Positions 53,934 through 64,000 of a stretch of DNA of 64,000 nt are shown piece after piece. Position numbers and translations under genes: made by a program. The stretch covers positions 313,476 through 377,475 of the forward strand of contig NZ_RJJW01000002.1 in the NCBI RefSeq assembly GCF_003781945.1, read 5' to 3'. Below the pieces are notes generated by a model. That model saw only the letters and a program-made list of their open reading frames with translations. It searched no databases and was not told where the DNA came from. Numbering within the stretch: position 1 is the first letter of the stretch; the number at the start of each line of letters is the position of its first letter. Origin of the DNA: Halorubrum sp. CSM-61 (GTDB lineage: Archaea; Halobacteriota; Halobacteria; Halobacteriales; Haloferacaceae).

Positions 53934-54422
53934 ATGGCCGACTCGTTGTGGTACCCGTCCGTCGAAGACGTCGTCGCCATCCACGACGACGTCGTCGCGG
54001 AGTATCCCGAGACTCCCGCCGGTGTTCGGAACCGCGGCGACATCGAGTTCGCACTGAACTACATCGAAGAGGGGAGCTTCGGCTTAGCGCCGGAAACCAT
54101 CCACGAGAAGGCGTATCATCTTCTGCGGCTCCTCGTCGCTAATCATCCCTTCGTCGATGCGAACAAACGTACCGCGCTCAACGTGACCGTCGTCTTCTAC
54201 TTCCTCAACGGGTACCGCTTCGAGTACGACGACGAAGTGAGGGCGATTCTGAAAGCGTTCGGTACCGACGAAGCGGCGGTGGATGAGGAAGAAACCACCG
54301 AGTATCTGCGCTCCCACACCGAAGAGTTGGATCTGGCCGGTGAGATCGAGGAGTGGCGAGACGAACTCGTCCGGTACGGGCTATCGGAGTTGACAGGCGA
54401 TTCGTCGGACCCGAACGGTTAA
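53934..54422 (+). CDS. doc: Fic/Doc-family toxin
   Basis: A 162-residue protein with the Doc motif HPFVDANKRTALN (HxFx[DN]xNKR), preceded by the expected helical fold (YPSVEDVVAIHDDVVAEYPE). Doc proteins phosphorylate elongation factor Tu and stop translation unless bound by an antitoxin. In known phd-doc operons the antitoxin gene is upstream; here no clear Phd lies upstream, and a 46-codon acidic ORF follows (54448). It is in the low-GC accessory region. Confidence 0.85.
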   Translation: MADSLWYPSVEDVVAIHDDVVAEYPETPAGVRNRGDIEFALNYIEEGSFGLAPETIHEKAYHLLRLLVANHPFVDANKRTALNVTVVFYFLNGYRFEYDDEVRAILKAFGTDEAAVDEEETTEYLRSHTEELDLAGEIEEWRDELVRYGLSELTGDSSDPNG

Positions 54423-56719: not shown

Positions 56720-56775
56720 TACGCTGAACGGGTGTCGAAGGCCGCGTAGTCGTGTGGTTCGAAACCGATCGAACC

Positions 56776-57789
56776 ATGGAACTCGAACCAATCGACCCCG
56801 AAACGGCGTTCGAGCTGTATATCGCGGAGAAAAAAAAAACTTCGGTTGCGGAGGCGACGGTCGTCTCTCACAAGTCACGTCTGAGTTTCCTGCTCAGATG
56901 GTGTGAGGAGCGCGAGATAGAGAACCTGAACGAACTGACCAGGCGGAGACTTCAGGAGTTTCGACTCTGGCGGCGCAACGTCGGCGACCTCACGAAGGTG
57001 AGCGAGAAGACGCAGATGGACACGCTACGCGTCTTCGTGAAGTGGCTAGAGTCAATCGACGCTGTTGAACAGAATCTTCATAAGAAGGTCCTCTCGCCGG
57101 ATATCACATCTCAAGAGAATAGTCGCGACGTGATGCTCGAAACTGACGACACTGAAGCGATGCTCGCGTACCTCGAGCGATACGAGTACGCCTCAATCAA
57201 CCACGTGACTGCGACGCTCCTGTGGCACACGATGCTCCGGATGGGCTCGGTGCGAGCGCTCGACATCAAAGACTACGACCCGGAAGAGCAGTCGCTACGG
57301 CTTCGGCATCGACCTGATACCGGCACACCACTCAAGAACAAGCAAGAAGGCGAGCGAATCATTGCCGTCTCAGGTGAGGTCTGTCTCGTTCTCGACGACT
57401 GGAACCGCGAACAACGGCCCGAAGTCATGGACGACTACGGTCGGAACCCGCTTCTCACGACAAGAAACGGGCGGGTTGCGAAGTCTACCCTCCGAAAGTA
57501 CTGCTACCAGATGACTCGTCCGTGTGAGTACGGCCAAGAGTGTCCGCACGACCGCGACACGACTGACTGTGCAGCCCTAGAGAAGAGTGGAGCATCGAGG
57601 TGTCCGTCTAGTGTTAGTCCGCATCCGTTCCGTCGTGGCGCGATCACGCACTACCTACAGAGTGACGTGCCCGAGACGGTGGTCGGCGACCGGGCGAACG
57701 TGACGTCCGACGTTATCGACCAACACTACGACCAGCGCTCGCAGAAAGAGAAGATGGAACAACGGAGGGGATACCTCGACGACATCTAA
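56776..57789 (+). CDS. Tyrosine recombinase/integrase (haloarchaeal type)
   Basis: A 337-residue site-specific recombinase. The N-terminal SAM-like DNA-binding domain (ATVVSHKSRLSFLLRWCEER, EKTQMDTLRVFVKWLES) is followed by the catalytic part: Arg in LRMGSVRALDI, HxxR in HPFRRGAITHYL, and nucleophile Tyr in VIDQHYDQRSQ. A Cys/His-rich insertion (CEYGQECPHDRDTTDC...RCPSS) may bind zinc. It is closely related to the integrase at 59109. An upstream in-frame GTG at 56752 is an alternative start. Confidence 0.9.
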   Translation: MELEPIDPETAFELYIAEKKKTSVAEATVVSHKSRLSFLLRWCEEREIENLNELTRRRLQEFRLWRRNVGDLTKVSEKTQMDTLRVFVKWLESIDAVEQNLHKKVLSPDITSQENSRDVMLETDDTEAMLAYLERYEYASINHVTATLLWHTMLRMGSVRALDIKDYDPEEQSLRLRHRPDTGTPLKNKQEGERIIAVSGEVCLVLDDWNREQRPEVMDDYGRNPLLTTRNGRVAKSTLRKYCYQMTRPCEYGQECPHDRDTTDCAALEKSGASRCPSSVSPHPFRRGAITHYLQSDVPETVVGDRANVTSDVIDQHYDQRSQKEKMEQRRGYLDDI

Positions 57790-57896: not shown

Positions 57897-58589
57897 ATGA
57901 AAAGTAGCTCGAATATTATGGCCGAAGACGGGTTACAGATACTTCTCGATATACCGGCCCAAAGCGGGAATTTATTCGGTAGTACGGCCACAGACACAGT
58001 TCTCTCTTTTTTATCTCGCCATCATACCCAGGAGTTCTCGATTAGTGACCTCGTCGAGGCAGTGGACTATTCGCAGCCGAGCGTCTCCAAGGCGGTAACC
58101 GTACTCTCCGAAAACGATCTCGTCGTCGAACGACGCGAGGGCAACACTCGATGGGTCCGGATCAATCACGAGCGGCTCCACGTCCCAGACGATCCCTATT
58201 TACAGATTCCTCAGGTCGAGTTTCAAGAACCCGTGAGAGCAGCGGTAACCGAACTCCGCGAGGAACTCGCCGACGTGATCGGGGTCGTTCTGTACGGTAG
58301 CGTCGCGCGAGGCGAAGCGGACCGGCGGAGTGACATCGATCTCTGGGTGCTCGTCGAGGAAGAGCGAATGGCAAACCAGCGAGCGGCGAATCAGGTCAAA
58401 CAGGCACTCGAAGACGAGGAGTTCGAGAACGGTCGGTACGAATACGAGATCGACGTCGAGGCGCTTCAGGCGGTCCCGAAGTACGTCTCCGAGATACGGG
58501 AGGTGCTCAGCGACGGGATCGTAATCCACGAGACGGAGAAGTTCCAGACGGTCCGGAACATGGTTTTCCACGGTGATATCGATGAGTGA
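57897..58589 (+). CDS. HTH-MNT nucleotidyltransferase (antitoxin of a HEPN/MNT pair)
   Basis: A 230-residue fusion. The first 85 residues are a winged helix (FSISDLVEAVDYSQPSVSKAVTVLSENDLVVERREGNTRW). The second part is a minimal nucleotidyltransferase with YGSVARGEADRRSDIDLWV, the GSx10DxD metal site. MNT antitoxins of type VII systems modify their HEPN toxin by adding AMP; the HTH adds possible autoregulation. A TATA-like catataaag lies about 35 bases upstream. The stop overlaps the HEPN start by eight bases. Confidence 0.85.
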   Translation: MKSSSNIMAEDGLQILLDIPAQSGNLFGSTATDTVLSFLSRHHTQEFSISDLVEAVDYSQPSVSKAVTVLSENDLVVERREGNTRWVRINHERLHVPDDPYLQIPQVEFQEPVRAAVTELREELADVIGVVLYGSVARGEADRRSDIDLWVLVEEERMANQRAANQVKQALEDEEFENGRYEYEIDVEALQAVPKYVSEIREVLSDGIVIHETEKFQTVRNMVFHGDIDE

Positions 58590-59094
58590 GGAGTCCGATC
58601 CGCGGGATATCCGGACGGCTCTCGATGCGGCTATCGACGCGTTCAACGAGGAGGGATTCGGCGTCCCGAACCGCGAGGACGCGATCTCGACCGGCGACGA
58701 TTGGAAGACACAGCTCACGAAGGCGTGTCGGCTGCTGGATGCGGTCGCACGGATCGACGGAGAGGGACACTACACCGCTGCCATCGAACTTTGCTTCGGG
58801 GCGACCGAGCGGTCTATCGAGGCCTATGCCCTCGCAGTCGGTGGTGATGAACTGGACGATTTCTACGATCACACGCACTGTTACGACCGGGCAGCGGACC
58901 TCGGCCTGCTCTCGCGGACGGCGACACGGGAGCTTCGGGGACTCTACGACGACAACAGGACGGACAGCTACTACGGCGGCAAGCGGCCCACAGAGAAGCA
59001 AGCGGATAGTGTGTATGCGCTCTCTCGCAGCGTTCACCAGTACGTCACGGATCAGATACGGGAAGGCGGCGTCTGTGTCTGCGACACTCGATAG
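58582..59094 (+). CDS. HEPN-domain protein (putative toxin partner)
   Basis: A 170-residue helical protein with HEPN-like segments (DWKTQLTKACRLLDAVARID, YTAAIELCFGATERSIEAYAL, CYDRAADLGLLSRTATRELR). HEPN ribonucleases carry R-x4-6-H; the corresponding stretch reads NRTDSYYGGKRP, with Tyr in place of His. That Tyr could be the AMP-acceptor or the motif may be degenerate. Overlap with the MNT gene shows co-translation. Confidence 0.78.
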   Translation: MSEESDPRDIRTALDAAIDAFNEEGFGVPNREDAISTGDDWKTQLTKACRLLDAVARIDGEGHYTAAIELCFGATERSIEAYALAVGGDELDDFYDHTHCYDRAADLGLLSRTATRELRGLYDDNRTDSYYGGKRPTEKQADSVYALSRSVHQYVTDQIREGGVCVCDTR

Positions 59095-59108: not shown

Positions 59109-60224
59109 CTAGGTGTACGATGAGCCACGACCGTCGACGTCGTCGAAGGCTTCCTGCCGCTGCTTCATTTTGTCCTCTTTCGACCGCACGTCGTAGTGCT
59201 GGTCGATAATTGTCGGCGAGACGTTACACCGGTCGCTGACGATTTCGACCGGAACGCCTGCCCGGAGCAGCTGCGTGATGTATCCTCGTCGGATCGGATG
59301 GGGCGTCACGCTCGACGGGCAACGTGCGGCTCGTGCCTCGTTCTTGACGGCTTCGCAGTCGTCGGGGTCGCGGTCATGCGGACACTCCCGACCTATCGCG
59401 CACGGCCGTGACCACCGGTAGACGTAGGTACGGATGGTCGACGTCCCCACGCGACCCCGCTGTGTCGCGAGGAGCGGCTTTCGGCCGTGGTCATCGACGA
59501 CGTCTGGGCGTCGCTGTTCGAGGTAGTCGTCGATCACGTCACACGCTTCTTCACTGATTGCGACGCGACGCTCACCCGGCTCCTTGTTCTTGATTGGCGT
59601 ATCTGAGTCCGGACGATGATGGATCTCGATGTGGGGCGTCTCCGCATCGGCTTGGTAGTCGCCCACGTCGAGGGCACGAGCTCCTCCCAAGCGTACACCC
59701 GTTTCCGTGAGGACGACCCAGCAGACGTGCTCCGTTGTGGCGTACTCGTATCGCTCGAGGTAGGCGAGGACCTCTTGGGCGCGTTCCGCGTTGAGCACGG
59801 TCTCTCGCGCGTTCTCACCGTTGTCTAGGTTCGGTGAGTCGACCTTGCGGTACAGTCCAGACTCGACGGCGTCGATGGTCTCGCACCACTCGATGAACAC
59901 GCGCAGCGAGTCCATCTGCGTCTTTTCGCTGACGACGTTGAGATCTTCGCGCCGCCACACGCGGAACTCGTGGAGGTCGCGAGCGGAGAGCTGGTCGAGC
60001 GTGTCGATGCCTTGGTCGTCACACCAGTCAACGAAGAAGCCGAGCCGAGAGCGATGGGCATCGACGGTCGCTTCCTGGCAGTCGCGGGCCTTGTCGTCGA
60101 GATAGAGTTCGAGTGCTCGTTCTGGATCGGTCGGTTCGAGCGATTCGGTCGTCTGCTCGAGCAGTTCCTCGAGACGATTCTCCAAGCTGTGCGACTCGGC
60201 GATGGAAGGGACCTCATTGGACAC
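59109..60224 (-). CDS. Second tyrosine recombinase/integrase
   Basis: A 371-residue paralogue of the integrase at 56776, in the opposite orientation. Shared segments include EKTQMDSLRVFIEWCETIDAVE, AYLERYEYATTEHV, CAIGRECPHDRDPDDC and RCPSSVTPHPIRRGYITQLL. Catalytic residues are Arg of GGARALDV, His/Arg of HPIRRG and Tyr of IIDQHYDVRSKED. A GTG start at 60224 is two bases after the stop of a ribbon-helix-helix gene, forming an operon. The two integrases bracket the HTH-MNT/HEPN pair. Confidence 0.9.
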   Translation of the reverse strand: MSNEVPSIAESHSLENRLEELLEQTTESLEPTDPERALELYLDDKARDCQEATVDAHRSRLGFFVDWCDDQGIDTLDQLSARDLHEFRVWRREDLNVVSEKTQMDSLRVFIEWCETIDAVESGLYRKVDSPNLDNGENARETVLNAERAQEVLAYLERYEYATTEHVCWVVLTETGVRLGGARALDVGDYQADAETPHIEIHHRPDSDTPIKNKEPGERRVAISEEACDVIDDYLEQRRPDVVDDHGRKPLLATQRGRVGTSTIRTYVYRWSRPCAIGRECPHDRDPDDCEAVKNEARAARCPSSVTPHPIRRGYITQLLRAGVPVEIVSDRCNVSPTIIDQHYDVRSKEDKMKQRQEAFDDVDGRGSSYT

Positions 60225-60226
60225 GG

Positions 60227-60487
60227 TTACTCCAACCTCTCGAGCATTTTCTTGACGAATTCATCTGGTGATTCTTCGGATAGATCCGTTGTCGTCGGCT
60301 GGTCAGGATCTTGGGTAGGGGAAGATTCGAGTGCTCGAAGATCGTGGGAATTCCGGTCGATGTGTTCCTCGATAACGCTCTCGAGGTATGCCGAGACGGT
60401 GAGGTCACACTCCTCGGCAGCACGGGTGATCTTGATCTTCGAGTCCGATTTGATACGAGCGGCGACCGATTCAGTGCGATTGGTCAC
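60227..60487 (-). CDS. Ribbon-helix-helix regulator upstream of the integrase
   Basis: An 86-residue protein whose N-terminal half (ESVAARIKSDSKIKITRAAE, ECDLTVSAYLESVIEEHID) is a ribbon-helix-helix or MobC-like DNA-binding segment, followed by an acidic tail. It starts an operon with the integrase. A TATA-like cctatatc on the minus strand is about 26 bases upstream, so translation is probably leaderless. Confidence 0.75.
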   Translation of the reverse strand: MTNRTESVAARIKSDSKIKITRAAEECDLTVSAYLESVIEEHIDRNSHDLRALESSPTQDPDQPTTTDLSEESPDEFVKKMLERLE

Positions 60488-60944: not shown

Positions 60945-61997
60945 GTGGAGACCACTAGCGGCCTCCGGCACAATCAGTCCGTAACGGGTCCGTTGGAGGT
61001 GACGGTCCACGACGTCAACACCCATCCCAAGCCGCCTCGAGACGTGGAACTCATCGCGACTGATGCTGACGGGGTGGAGATACAGGTCGTTACTTGGAAG
61101 AAACACGACGTAACGGTCGAGTGGGAGGTCGGTGCTACGTACGCGATCAGGGGCGGAAGAGCGAAGCGATACATCGACGCTTCGGGTCCGGAGCTTCGGA
61201 TCCACAGTAACGCGGATTTTGCTGTCGAGCGGGTTACATCCGAATCAGACCGGTTACGGCTCCTCTTCCTCGGCGATACGCACGTCGGGTATCGCCATCG
61301 GGCGTCAAATACCAAGCCGCCGTGGGCCCAAGATGTGGACAACAGACAAACGTTCAGTCGGAGTCTCGCCCGTGCTCGGGGCCTCGACGTCGACGCGGTC
61401 GTCCACGCTGGCGACGTGTTCGACCACGAAATAACCCGAAACGATAGGGATCACGTTCGCGAGGAGATCCGACGCACCCACGATGCGGGGATCCCGCTGT
61501 ACTACATCCACGGGAACCACGACAACGAAGCGGGTAACAGGACGTTACGTCAGGGTCCGAGAATCCATATCGGTGGTGAGACCGCAGTGTTCGGCGACGG
61601 TGTCGTCCGACTTTCTGGACTTGACTACGGTGCGGGAGAGTTTTCGAGTCCGCAGCCGGAGAAGCCGGGCGACGATGGGGCATCGGTATCGATCCTTGTT
61701 ATACACGACACGCCGTATCCGGCAGTCGACGAGAACGGATCTCCGATCCATCGGACTGATCCGAATCATCTTGATCTCAGGGAGTTTCTCGACTCGGCTG
61801 AGGAGTGGTTGGACCTGATCGTCTCGGGGCATCTACACGTCGGGAGCCGCGCTTCGATAGCGGGCTACGAGACGCCTCTCATCGTCACGGGCCCGACTGC
61901 GGAGATTAGCACATCGACACAGGAGAACACTCCTTCCACCTGGTTGGTGACGGTGCTGAACGGAGAGGTTCAGGTTGAGCGGCAGCGATTGGTATGA
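60945..61997 (+). CDS. OB-fold plus Mre11-like metallophosphoesterase
   Basis: A 350-residue protein. The first 90 residues form an OB-fold-like nucleic-acid-binding domain (PLEVTVHDVNTHPKPPRDVE, VEWEVGATYAIRGGRAKRY). A calcineurin-like phosphoesterase follows: FLGDTHVGYRHR, HAGDVFDHE, YIHGNHDNE, ILVIHDTPYP and VSGHLHVGSR, carrying all metal ligands of Mre11/SbcD-type nucleases. A DNA end-processing or RNA-cleaving role is inferred. The first codon is taken as GTG at 60945, but this is uncertain. It is convergent with a GmrSD-type gene. Confidence 0.78.
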   Translation: METTSGLRHNQSVTGPLEVTVHDVNTHPKPPRDVELIATDADGVEIQVVTWKKHDVTVEWEVGATYAIRGGRAKRYIDASGPELRIHSNADFAVERVTSESDRLRLLFLGDTHVGYRHRASNTKPPWAQDVDNRQTFSRSLARARGLDVDAVVHAGDVFDHEITRNDRDHVREEIRRTHDAGIPLYYIHGNHDNEAGNRTLRQGPRIHIGGETAVFGDGVVRLSGLDYGAGEFSSPQPEKPGDDGASVSILVIHDTPYPAVDENGSPIHRTDPNHLDLREFLDSAEEWLDLIVSGHLHVGSRASIAGYETPLIVTGPTAEISTSTQENTPSTWLVTVLNGEVQVERQRLV

Positions 61998-62053
61998 GCC
62001 GGCTCTGTGGTCCCCCAACTATGTTTTCGACAGTCCTCAAGCAGGAGGTGAAA

Positions 62054-64000
62054 TCACTTCAGATCCATCTCTGCTTCGAACTGCTCGCGTTGCGCAGAAT
62101 CGAGCGTGAGAACCCATTCGAACTGGTCTCCTGCCCACGATGGGGACATGATCGAGTGGCGGAACTCCTTGGAGTGTTTCGACGTCAGCCCCGCGAGAAT
62201 ACCTGAAAGACCGCTACTGCCACCGACCGTCTCCCCGTACTCGTCTTCCATCCGTTCGATCAGGTCGTCGGTGAGCAACGGCTCTTCTGCGGCGTACAGA
62301 ACGCGGAACATCGCCTCCTGTTTGCTGGTGAGGCGGTCGAAGAAATCAGGTGGGAACCACCCGACAAACTCATCAGGGGCATCCGTTGAATCCGGCTCGG
62401 AGGACGCGGGATCGGTGGACCAGTGATCGAGCGCGAATTCGACAAGCGTGTCGGTCCGCTCGTCGATGGCCGACTGCCCGAAGGTGTCGAACGCCGCGAG
62501 TTCCCGCTGGACACGTAACGACGAGGAGGCATACTCTTTTTCGCGTCCACCGCTGGCGTGTTTCTTCTCGGAGAAGGGAAGATTGCCGTACGAGCTGTTC
62601 CAGTATCTACTGGCGAGCGTGAGGTTCCCGAGGCGGTGGACGTGTTCGTCGAACTCGTCGACAAGACTCTCCGGAATCGCATCAGTAGGAAGCTTTCGAG
62701 CAAGAATGTGTTCAACTTGGAACTCAGTCGAGAGGATATGTCCCGGACTCGTCAGGACCTCCTCACCAGCTTCGGACTCAACCTGTTGTCCGTAGCGATA
62801 GAGGAGGTACTTCGTGTCTCGGCTTGACGTACTCTGGTAGAAGTTTGGATCGCGGAGCCGACGCTCGAACCGGTCGTCGTCTGTGTATCGCTCCGTGATT
62901 GAGTCGAGTCGTTCGACAACAGTCTCGGGATCGATCGACTGTGTAGTGTGAACGTCGTGGGCGAGTCGGACCAGTCGGCCTCGACCCGTGTCCGAACGCC
63001 TCGAGTCGATCGCGTACATCCGGAATACGAGCGTTTCACACGCGTCGACGATGTCAGCAAAGCCATCGGGGTCATCACCAGCGAACTTCAGGTACGATGC
63101 CATCAGGACGGGGAGAACGTTCGCCAGTCGCCCGAGCTCCAAGAGTCGCGTGAGAGCGGGCTCGACAGAGTCTGGCACGTCCGGCTGGAGTATCGCAGCA
63201 AACGCCGTAGCAGCCTCACGGAGGTCCTGGACATACGAGTCAATTCCTGACTGGACGGCATCGAGTTCACCGGCACGGTACTGCTCGCGGAGCCGGTCTT
63301 TCAGTGTCCCGAATCCGTTGAAATACTCATTAGAATTATAGCCGTCGTACATCCCCCAGTGGAATCGGAGGAAACTGTCCTCGTCGAAGTCATTCACCCG
63401 ATTATGGCCGGTGTTGAAAACGAACAGATCTCGGAAGATGCTCCCAAACCGCTGCTTGATCTTGGTTTCAAGGGCACCGTCGTTGCTGGAGCGGTCGTCC
63501 ATGTACATCAGGAAGCTCTTCGTTTTGTCGAGCGTCGACAGCGGCCGGCCGCGGTCGTTAAGACTCTCGAATATCGAAGCCGCCTCGGAGCCGTCATCGA
63601 TTTCGACGACGTTGATCCGGCAGTCGTATCGGAGCGTCTCAGCGAGATCAAGTACGGCGTCCTGGTCCTCGAGCGCCTCGAATCCCTCTGTGAAGAAGTC
63701 AGTGGCGGCCTTGAGCCGCGTCTGTGACGGGGTCTCTGGATCGATAGATGAGGATCCAAGTAATCCGTCACGGAAATACTCGGTATCTTGATCCTGCGGA
63801 AGTAATCGCGGCCGTTCCTCGACAGGGAAGAGTAGGTTATCCTCGTCAAGCGTCGCCGCGACCGTGTCATCAAACTTCGAAGCGACGTACAGAAAGATGA
63901 TTGCCGATGTCAGACGCTGTTGGCCGTCCACGACGTCGTACTTATCAAATCGACGTCGACGATCCGTCTCGAACTGCGTGTCCTGCTTGCGAAGAATGAT
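62054..64000 (-). CDS. GmrSD-type restriction protein (DUF262-DUF1524), N-terminus beyond window
   Basis: At least 648 residues, open through the right edge. The DUF262 motif is YDVVDGQQRLTSAIIFLY, followed by FESLNDRGRPLSTLDKTKSF. Later comes the DUF1524 HNH-like part FQVEHILARKLP, with EHVHRLGNLTLASRYWNSSYGNLPFSEKK. A C-terminal winged-helix-like region ends EQFEAEMDLK. Single-chain GmrSD proteins are type IV restriction enzymes cutting modified (for example glucosylated) phage DNA with NTP hydrolysis. The start codon lies outside the window. Confidence 0.88.
   Translation of the reverse strand: MILRKQDTQFETDRRRRFDKYDVVDGQQRLTSAIIFLYVASKFDDTVAATLDEDNLLFPVEERPRLLPQDQDTEYFRDGLLGSSSIDPETPSQTRLKAATDFFTEGFEALEDQDAVLDLAETLRYDCRINVVEIDDGSEAASIFESLNDRGRPLSTLDKTKSFLMYMDDRSSNDGALETKIKQRFGSIFRDLFVFNTGHNRVNDFDEDSFLRFHWGMYDGYNSNEYFNGFGTLKDRLREQYRAGELDAVQSGIDSYVQDLREAATAFAAILQPDVPDSVEPALTRLLELGRLANVLPVLMASYLKFAGDDPDGFADIVDACETLVFRMYAIDSRRSDTGRGRLVRLAHDVHTTQSIDPETVVERLDSITERYTDDDRFERRLRDPNFYQSTSSRDTKYLLYRYGQQVESEAGEEVLTSPGHILSTEFQVEHILARKLPTDAIPESLVDEFDEHVHRLGNLTLASRYWNSSYGNLPFSEKKHASGGREKEYASSSLRVQRELAAFDTFGQSAIDERTDTLVEFALDHWSTDPASSEPDSTDAPDEFVGWFPPDFFDRLTSKQEAMFRVLYAAEEPLLTDDLIERMEDEYGETVGGSSGLSGILAGLTSKHSKEFRHSIMSPSWAGDQFEWVLTLDSAQREQFEAEMDLK

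Follow-up and report, generated by a model that had tools for sequence, protein, structure and literature searches.

A haloarchaeal phosphoesterase of Mre11 type with an RPA-like OB fold, found in mobile islands near restriction systems, as a candidate accessory nuclease of defence

DP1 of PolD and the B-subunits of replicative polymerases carry an OB fold and a phosphoesterase domain on one chain. For DP1, a structure has been published (PMC4996933). The pairing of these two modules is not new in haloarchaea either. In the core chromosomal operon rfa2-rfa7-yhcR (RPA1-RPAP1-phosphoesterase), RPA-type OB folds and a phosphoesterase are encoded by separate genes, RPA1 is co-transcribed with the phosphoesterase YhcR/HVO_1336, and deletion of the phosphoesterase gene lowers survival of mitomycin C about 100-fold (PMC5924565). 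Mre11/SbcD enzymes share the phosphoesterase fold and combine it with a capping domain and a Rad50-binding tail. Among restriction systems, the GmrSD family includes BrxU, SspE-like proteins and PADLOC HEC-06, and DUF4268 reportedly occurs fused to GmrSD domains (PMC4619093). Here we describe a haloarchaeal OB-fold phosphoesterase (OB-PE) that touches on each of these systems; our literature search for haloarchaeal defence proteins of this OB-phosphoesterase type yielded no specific match.

The OB-PE gene lies in an island at the end of the window, i.e., the whole stretch of 64,000 nucleotides from Halorubrum sp. CSM-61 that was analysed (G000:C23:313476-377475). The relevant features are as follows:

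53934..54422, plus strand: gene of the Fic/Doc (death-on-curing) family in the left part of the island, by domain matches
56752..57789, plus strand: second tyrosine recombinase of the island, by domain matches
57897..59094, plus strand: HTH-nucleotidyltransferase (MNT-like) gene and an overlapping gene for a 170-aa partner without Pfam match
59109..60224, minus strand: tyrosine recombinase/integrase of the island, by domain matches
60227..60487, minus strand: small protein, weakly matching MobA/NikA/RelB-like families (ribbon-helix-helix type), encoded divergently from OB-PE and syntenic in relatives
60945..61997, plus strand: OB-PE gene, 350 aa, GTG start, with a predicted RPA-type OB fold and a predicted Mre11/SbcD-type metallophosphoesterase domain
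60945..61235, plus strand: predicted OB-fold domain (OB-PE residues 1-97), from the AF2 model, VIA matches and sequence profile
61239..61994, plus strand: predicted Mre11-like phosphoesterase domain (OB-PE residues 99-350), from ligands, profile and structure matches
62054..64000 and past the window end, minus strand: single-chain GmrSD type IV restriction enzyme, GmrSD_N and GmrSD_C both above cut-off

In the stretch between about 54 kb and the end of the window, the G+C content falls from about 0.69 to about 0.57. A search for an unoccupied counterpart of the island gave no clean case; in genome G004 the two genes that flank it are found on separate contigs. The MNT-like gene and its 170-aa partner are placed between the two tyrosine recombinases, in an order kept in relatives, and are likely a toxin-antitoxin pair of the MNT-HEPN type with the second gene as the putative HEPN member. 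As stated in a preliminary description of this DNA, OB-PE converges on a single-chain GmrSD, the 3′ ends of the two genes facing each other at a distance of 56 bp. This neighbour is a bona fide member of its family. It comprises 701 aa in full (L032:1530-3635), of which 648 aa lie within the window and the N-terminal 53 aa beyond it, and is intact, as are its VDGQQRLT and HNH motifs, with GmrSD_N (DGQQR) and GmrSD_C (HNH) on one chain. Beyond it come a short gene for a DDE transposase and, further on, genes that are kept in relatives. OB-PE itself is unrelated to GmrSD, which is also found elsewhere without it.

The predicted structure of OB-PE shows two domains. The AF2 model of the whole protein, built on a 33-sequence alignment, reaches a pLDDT of 89.5, and a model of residues 1-100 alone a pLDDT of 93. 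The latter superposes well to the OB domain of Methanosarcina mazei MM0293 (2ken; VIA Z 12.8, rmsd 1.8, 91 aligned residues) and to RPA70 DBD-A (VIA Z 11.9, rmsd 2.3, 98 aligned residues), and the sequence profile of this part matches the RPA70-like Teb1 with an E-value of 0.0012. On the model, the N-terminus of OB-PE thus adopts the RPA/SSB/POT1 type of OB fold. Pfam Metallophos spans residues 104-299 (E 6e-11), and the catalytic domain resembles Mre11 most closely (4fcx_B; VIA Z 25.4, rmsd 2.9, 228 aligned residues; Foldseek E 1.1e-11), while the calcineurin-like folds of Rv0805 and GpdQ reach a Z of about 20.6-20.8. The OB fold and the Mre11-like domain named in the preliminary description are therefore both borne out by the models. 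The metal ligands are D111, H113, D157, N191, H192, H254, H296 and H298. Across 40 homologues D111, H113, D157, H192 and H254 are invariant, and variation is restricted to N191 (one homologue), H298 (one) and H296, which is replaced by Asp in five. The number of full-length homologues with conserved ligands, together with a dN/dS of 0.10-0.18 among the four closest, argues against a chance open reading frame. In P. furiosus Mre11, the counterpart of model residues 104-350 is roughly the range 1-269, i.e., mainly the phosphoesterase core. As this range and the end of the chain at residue 350 coincide with the end of the Mre11 core, OB-PE appears to lack the capping domain and the Rad50-binding region.

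To place the catalytic domain among phosphoesterases, a profile of 33 OB-PE homologues was used. Among solved structures in the PDB it matches archaeal Mre11 (E 4e-20). We also used it to score the metallophosphatases encoded by two Halorubrum genomes and one relative, whose gene identities we assigned by position and sequence. The top scores, 134-187 bits, fell to SbcD-like and Mre11 proteins, several of which adjoin SbcC/Rad50-like genes. Candidates for the haloarchaeal RPA-associated phosphoesterase reached about 15-17 bits, and DP1-type proteins gave no match at E ≤ 1; nor were DP1 structures among the PDB matches of the profile. DP1 was likewise absent from the structural comparison, which by itself excludes nothing. 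PolD DP1, despite its like domain pair, and the RPA-associated phosphoesterase are thus ruled out by profile scores as the family of OB-PE. These scores place the catalytic domain in the Mre11/SbcD branch, and OB-PE is therefore best described as an OB-fused, Rad50-less offshoot of it. It stays below the curated cut-offs of that branch (Mre11_Halo, 47.6 of 550 bits; sbcd, 31.6 of 77.65). Gene calling showed no SbcC/Rad50 gene next to the window copy on either flank, whereas the genome's own Mre11 adjoins a Rad50-type gene. The absence of this partner, stressed in the preliminary description, hence holds, but the oddity of the architecture was overstated in view of PolD DP1. We further observed, besides the chromosomal Mre11, second SbcD-like genes adjoining SbcC/Rad50-like genes in two genomes (L205, G083:C7; L207, G029:C1:51406), whose proteins are the closest-scoring relatives of the OB-PE catalytic domain.

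We found 40-odd homologues of OB-PE, all of them in Haloarchaea; a genome-contig scan and a phylum sample gave matches covering both OB fold and phosphoesterase in Halobacteria only. The full-length protein is present in roughly 9% of 391 sampled class-level genomes. Outside Halobacteria, nearly all archaeal and bacterial matches start at about residue 80-105 and thus cover the phosphoesterase domain only. Some larger proteins that matched OB-PE were rejected as homologues, the OB fold alone being shared. Very large Halorubrum proteins of 1289-1711 aa (L048:8985-13610, L049:7841-12976, L050:6001-9870) carry an OB fold of the OB-PE type (33-36% identity over about 80 aa) along with HNH-repeat domains and a DEAD/ResIII helicase or a beta-propeller. 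Seven haloarchaeal plasmid records encode OB-PE, including pHLAC01 of H. lacusprofundi, an organism with two copies, one on pHLAC01, whose reading frame contains a stop, and one on CHR2. Its UNSW strain has lost pHLAC01 and a portion of CHR2 along with much else (PMC10544981). Halobacterium sp. DL1, archaeon DL31 and H. lacusprofundi encode identical OB-PE proteins, which indicates very recent transfer, and a plasmid-like element with OB-PE and an Mrr endonuclease is found in near-identical copies in genomes from different families (L039, L040, L041, L042, L081, L082, L083). A viral origin was considered and rejected, as no OB-PE was found among viral contigs or phage records.

Against PADLOC-DB 2.0.0 the window OB-PE had no match to a described defence model at E 0.001. 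The PADLOC candidate PDC-S10 shows a partial profile match in 8 of 33 homologues (best E 7.8e-11), and a weak one to residues 148-195 of the window protein (E 0.0015).

In the eight closest loci, from Halorubrum and G083, OB-PE or its remnant is invariably opposed by GmrSD, by a DUF4268 protein, or by both. The facing gene encodes DUF4268 in G006, G035, G029, G083 and G011, a run of DUF4268, a 113-aa protein and GmrSD is found in G037 and G016, and GmrSD alone in the window. Since DUF4268 has been reported fused to GmrSD domains (see above), we regard the facing modules as one kind. In G006 the DUF4268 gene is split by an element of the IS605/TnpB type (L033:5606-8020). OB-PE is intact in three of the eight copies and broken in the other five: residues 1-140 are missing in G037 and residues 63-322 in G016, the C-terminal part alone is left in G083 and G011, and the OB fold in G029 is interrupted by an in-frame stop. 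The GmrSD genes adjoining the broken copies in G037 and G016 are intact and under strong purifying selection (dN/dS about 0.05). Thus GmrSD does not need OB-PE, which argues that OB-PE is an accessory rather than an obligate partner.

For the wider set of homologues, neighbouring genes were called by a custom script and clustered, and selected neighbours were annotated with Pfam. Besides GmrSD, DUF4268 and Mrr, they include D12 methylase, PLD-like, TIR, NucS-like and BrxB (BREX) proteins, Eco57I methylase with SNF2 helicase and TBP, UvrD/PD-(D/E)XK pairs and ADP-ribosylglycohydrolase. The genes for the latter adjoin OB-PE or lie near it in three clades (L045:10768-11694, L102:4709-5638, L106:6221-7159, L107:9124-10062, L108:1284-2222, L109:8823-9761). 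For some homologues, such as those at L043, L046, L086 and L090, the neighbours annotated up to about three genes away include no evident defence gene. By counts read by eye, a GmrSD gene is located no more than 5 kb away at about 9 of about 45 OB-PE loci, and these fall into five separate clades of the homologue tree; with about 38 GmrSD genes in the 42 genomes that carry OB-PE, random placement would give about 0.1 such loci. In a defence-gene control, counted in the same way, GmrSD was this close to 3 of about 105 Mrr genes (Fisher p about 0.001, both for all loci and in a rough lineage-collapsed estimate). Mobile islands gather defence genes in general and the Mrr control removes this bias only partly, so that proximity alone is weak evidence. 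The GmrSDs near OB-PE belong to different subtypes with about 21-33% identity across clades, and their orientation varies; in L099 and L100, the GmrSD gene immediately precedes OB-PE and shares its strand. The survey bears out the proposed setting in defence and mobile islands, and homologues beside housekeeping repair genes, which it also looked for, were not found.

With the architecture, ligands, branch, purifying selection, restriction and defence neighbourhood and independent loss of OB-PE computed, its domains and context suggest how it might act. We favour, with moderate confidence, a stand-alone, Rad50-independent nuclease directed at ssDNA that the mobile islands of haloarchaea carry as an interchangeable add-on to restriction-type defence. 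Its nuclease activity, substrate, cooperation with restriction enzymes and antiviral role are each read from that context. Restriction systems such as GmrSD, DUF4268-type proteins or Mrr would cut incoming DNA first. The RPA-type OB fold, standing in for the missing capping and Rad50-binding parts, would hold ssDNA, or a frayed or hairpin end, and pass it to the phosphoesterase site. OB-PE, as a Mn-dependent nuclease of the Mre11/SbcD branch that requires neither ATP nor Rad50, might then degrade or process the single-stranded ends, so that the invader is neither repaired nor replicated.

The main rival is a role in repair or replication for the mobile element or its host, in which OB-PE would be a fused version of RPA1-RPAP1-phosphoesterase that processes ssDNA intermediates and has no part in defence. 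The mitomycin C phenotype of the yhcR deletion speaks for such a role, as do the several plasmid-borne copies and a Cdc6/Orc gene located two genes from OB-PE in some Halorubrum loci. We nevertheless consider it unlikely on balance, since the catalytic domain falls outside the RPA-associated branch (about 17 versus 134-187 bits) and the patchy occurrence, frequent decay and restriction neighbours are unlike those of a core repair gene; no RPA operon (rpa1, rpap1) lies beside OB-PE within the window. Quite improbable, in our view, is a phosphodiesterase whose substrates are nucleotides or signalling molecules. It would serve counter-defence or the turnover of signals, and its OB fold would interact with proteins or bind oligonucleotides. 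The good matches to Rv0805 and GpdQ and the nearby ADP-ribosylglycohydrolase genes would fit this idea, and an immunity-evading phage phosphoesterase is known from an excerpt of PMC12287305. However, Mre11 is consistently the best match in both structure and sequence, the OB fold is predicted to be of the ssDNA-binding RPA/POT1 type, and phages and viral contigs yielded no OB-PE.

The two-gene cassette of OB-PE and GmrSD envisaged in the preliminary description is not supported, and we give very little credence to an obligate antiviral pair. Their proximity recurs in five clades, the facing arrangement is conserved in the closest loci, and the same-strand order in L099 and L100 would suit a joint system. 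Yet for the majority of homologues the surrounding 5 kb contain no GmrSD, and since partners, orientation and GmrSD subtype vary and OB-PE is truncated next to intact GmrSD in G037 and G016, the two do not form an obligate pair. The least probable reading treats OB-PE as a neutral passenger: the island is hypervariable, and the gene would have no function under selection at this site. Five broken copies in the closest set of eight are in line with it, whereas the dN/dS of 0.10-0.18 among intact copies and active sites that are near-complete across 40 divergent homologues speak against it.

If the accessory nuclease that we favour is real, a Rad50-free nuclease of the Mre11 type would be a mobile accessory of many haloarchaeal restriction systems, and the haloarchaeal theme of RPA and phosphoesterase in DNA repair would be linked to immunity. 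Somewhat more tentatively, OB-PE could represent a hitherto undescribed, haloarchaea-specific class of antiviral nuclease, in which an RPA-like OB fold and a Rad50-independent Mre11-type domain form an end-processing module shared across GmrSD, DUF4268, Mrr, BREX, Eco57I-type and TIR systems. A mobile accessory of many restriction systems would be comparable to the nuclease-protease pairs repeatedly added to unrelated bacterial immune systems, as described in an excerpt of PMC12799240. OB-PE is a small, testable enzyme, and its hosts are genetically tractable.

A further observation concerns two distant genomes, in which a TATA-binding-protein gene stands in tandem with large methylase and helicase genes directly before OB-PE (L044:1117-8728, L105:2-7962). 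In L044, Pfam identifies the TBP and the Eco57I-type methylase, and L105 contains a member of the same TBP cluster. A basal transcription factor within a restriction-type operon is an odd arrangement.
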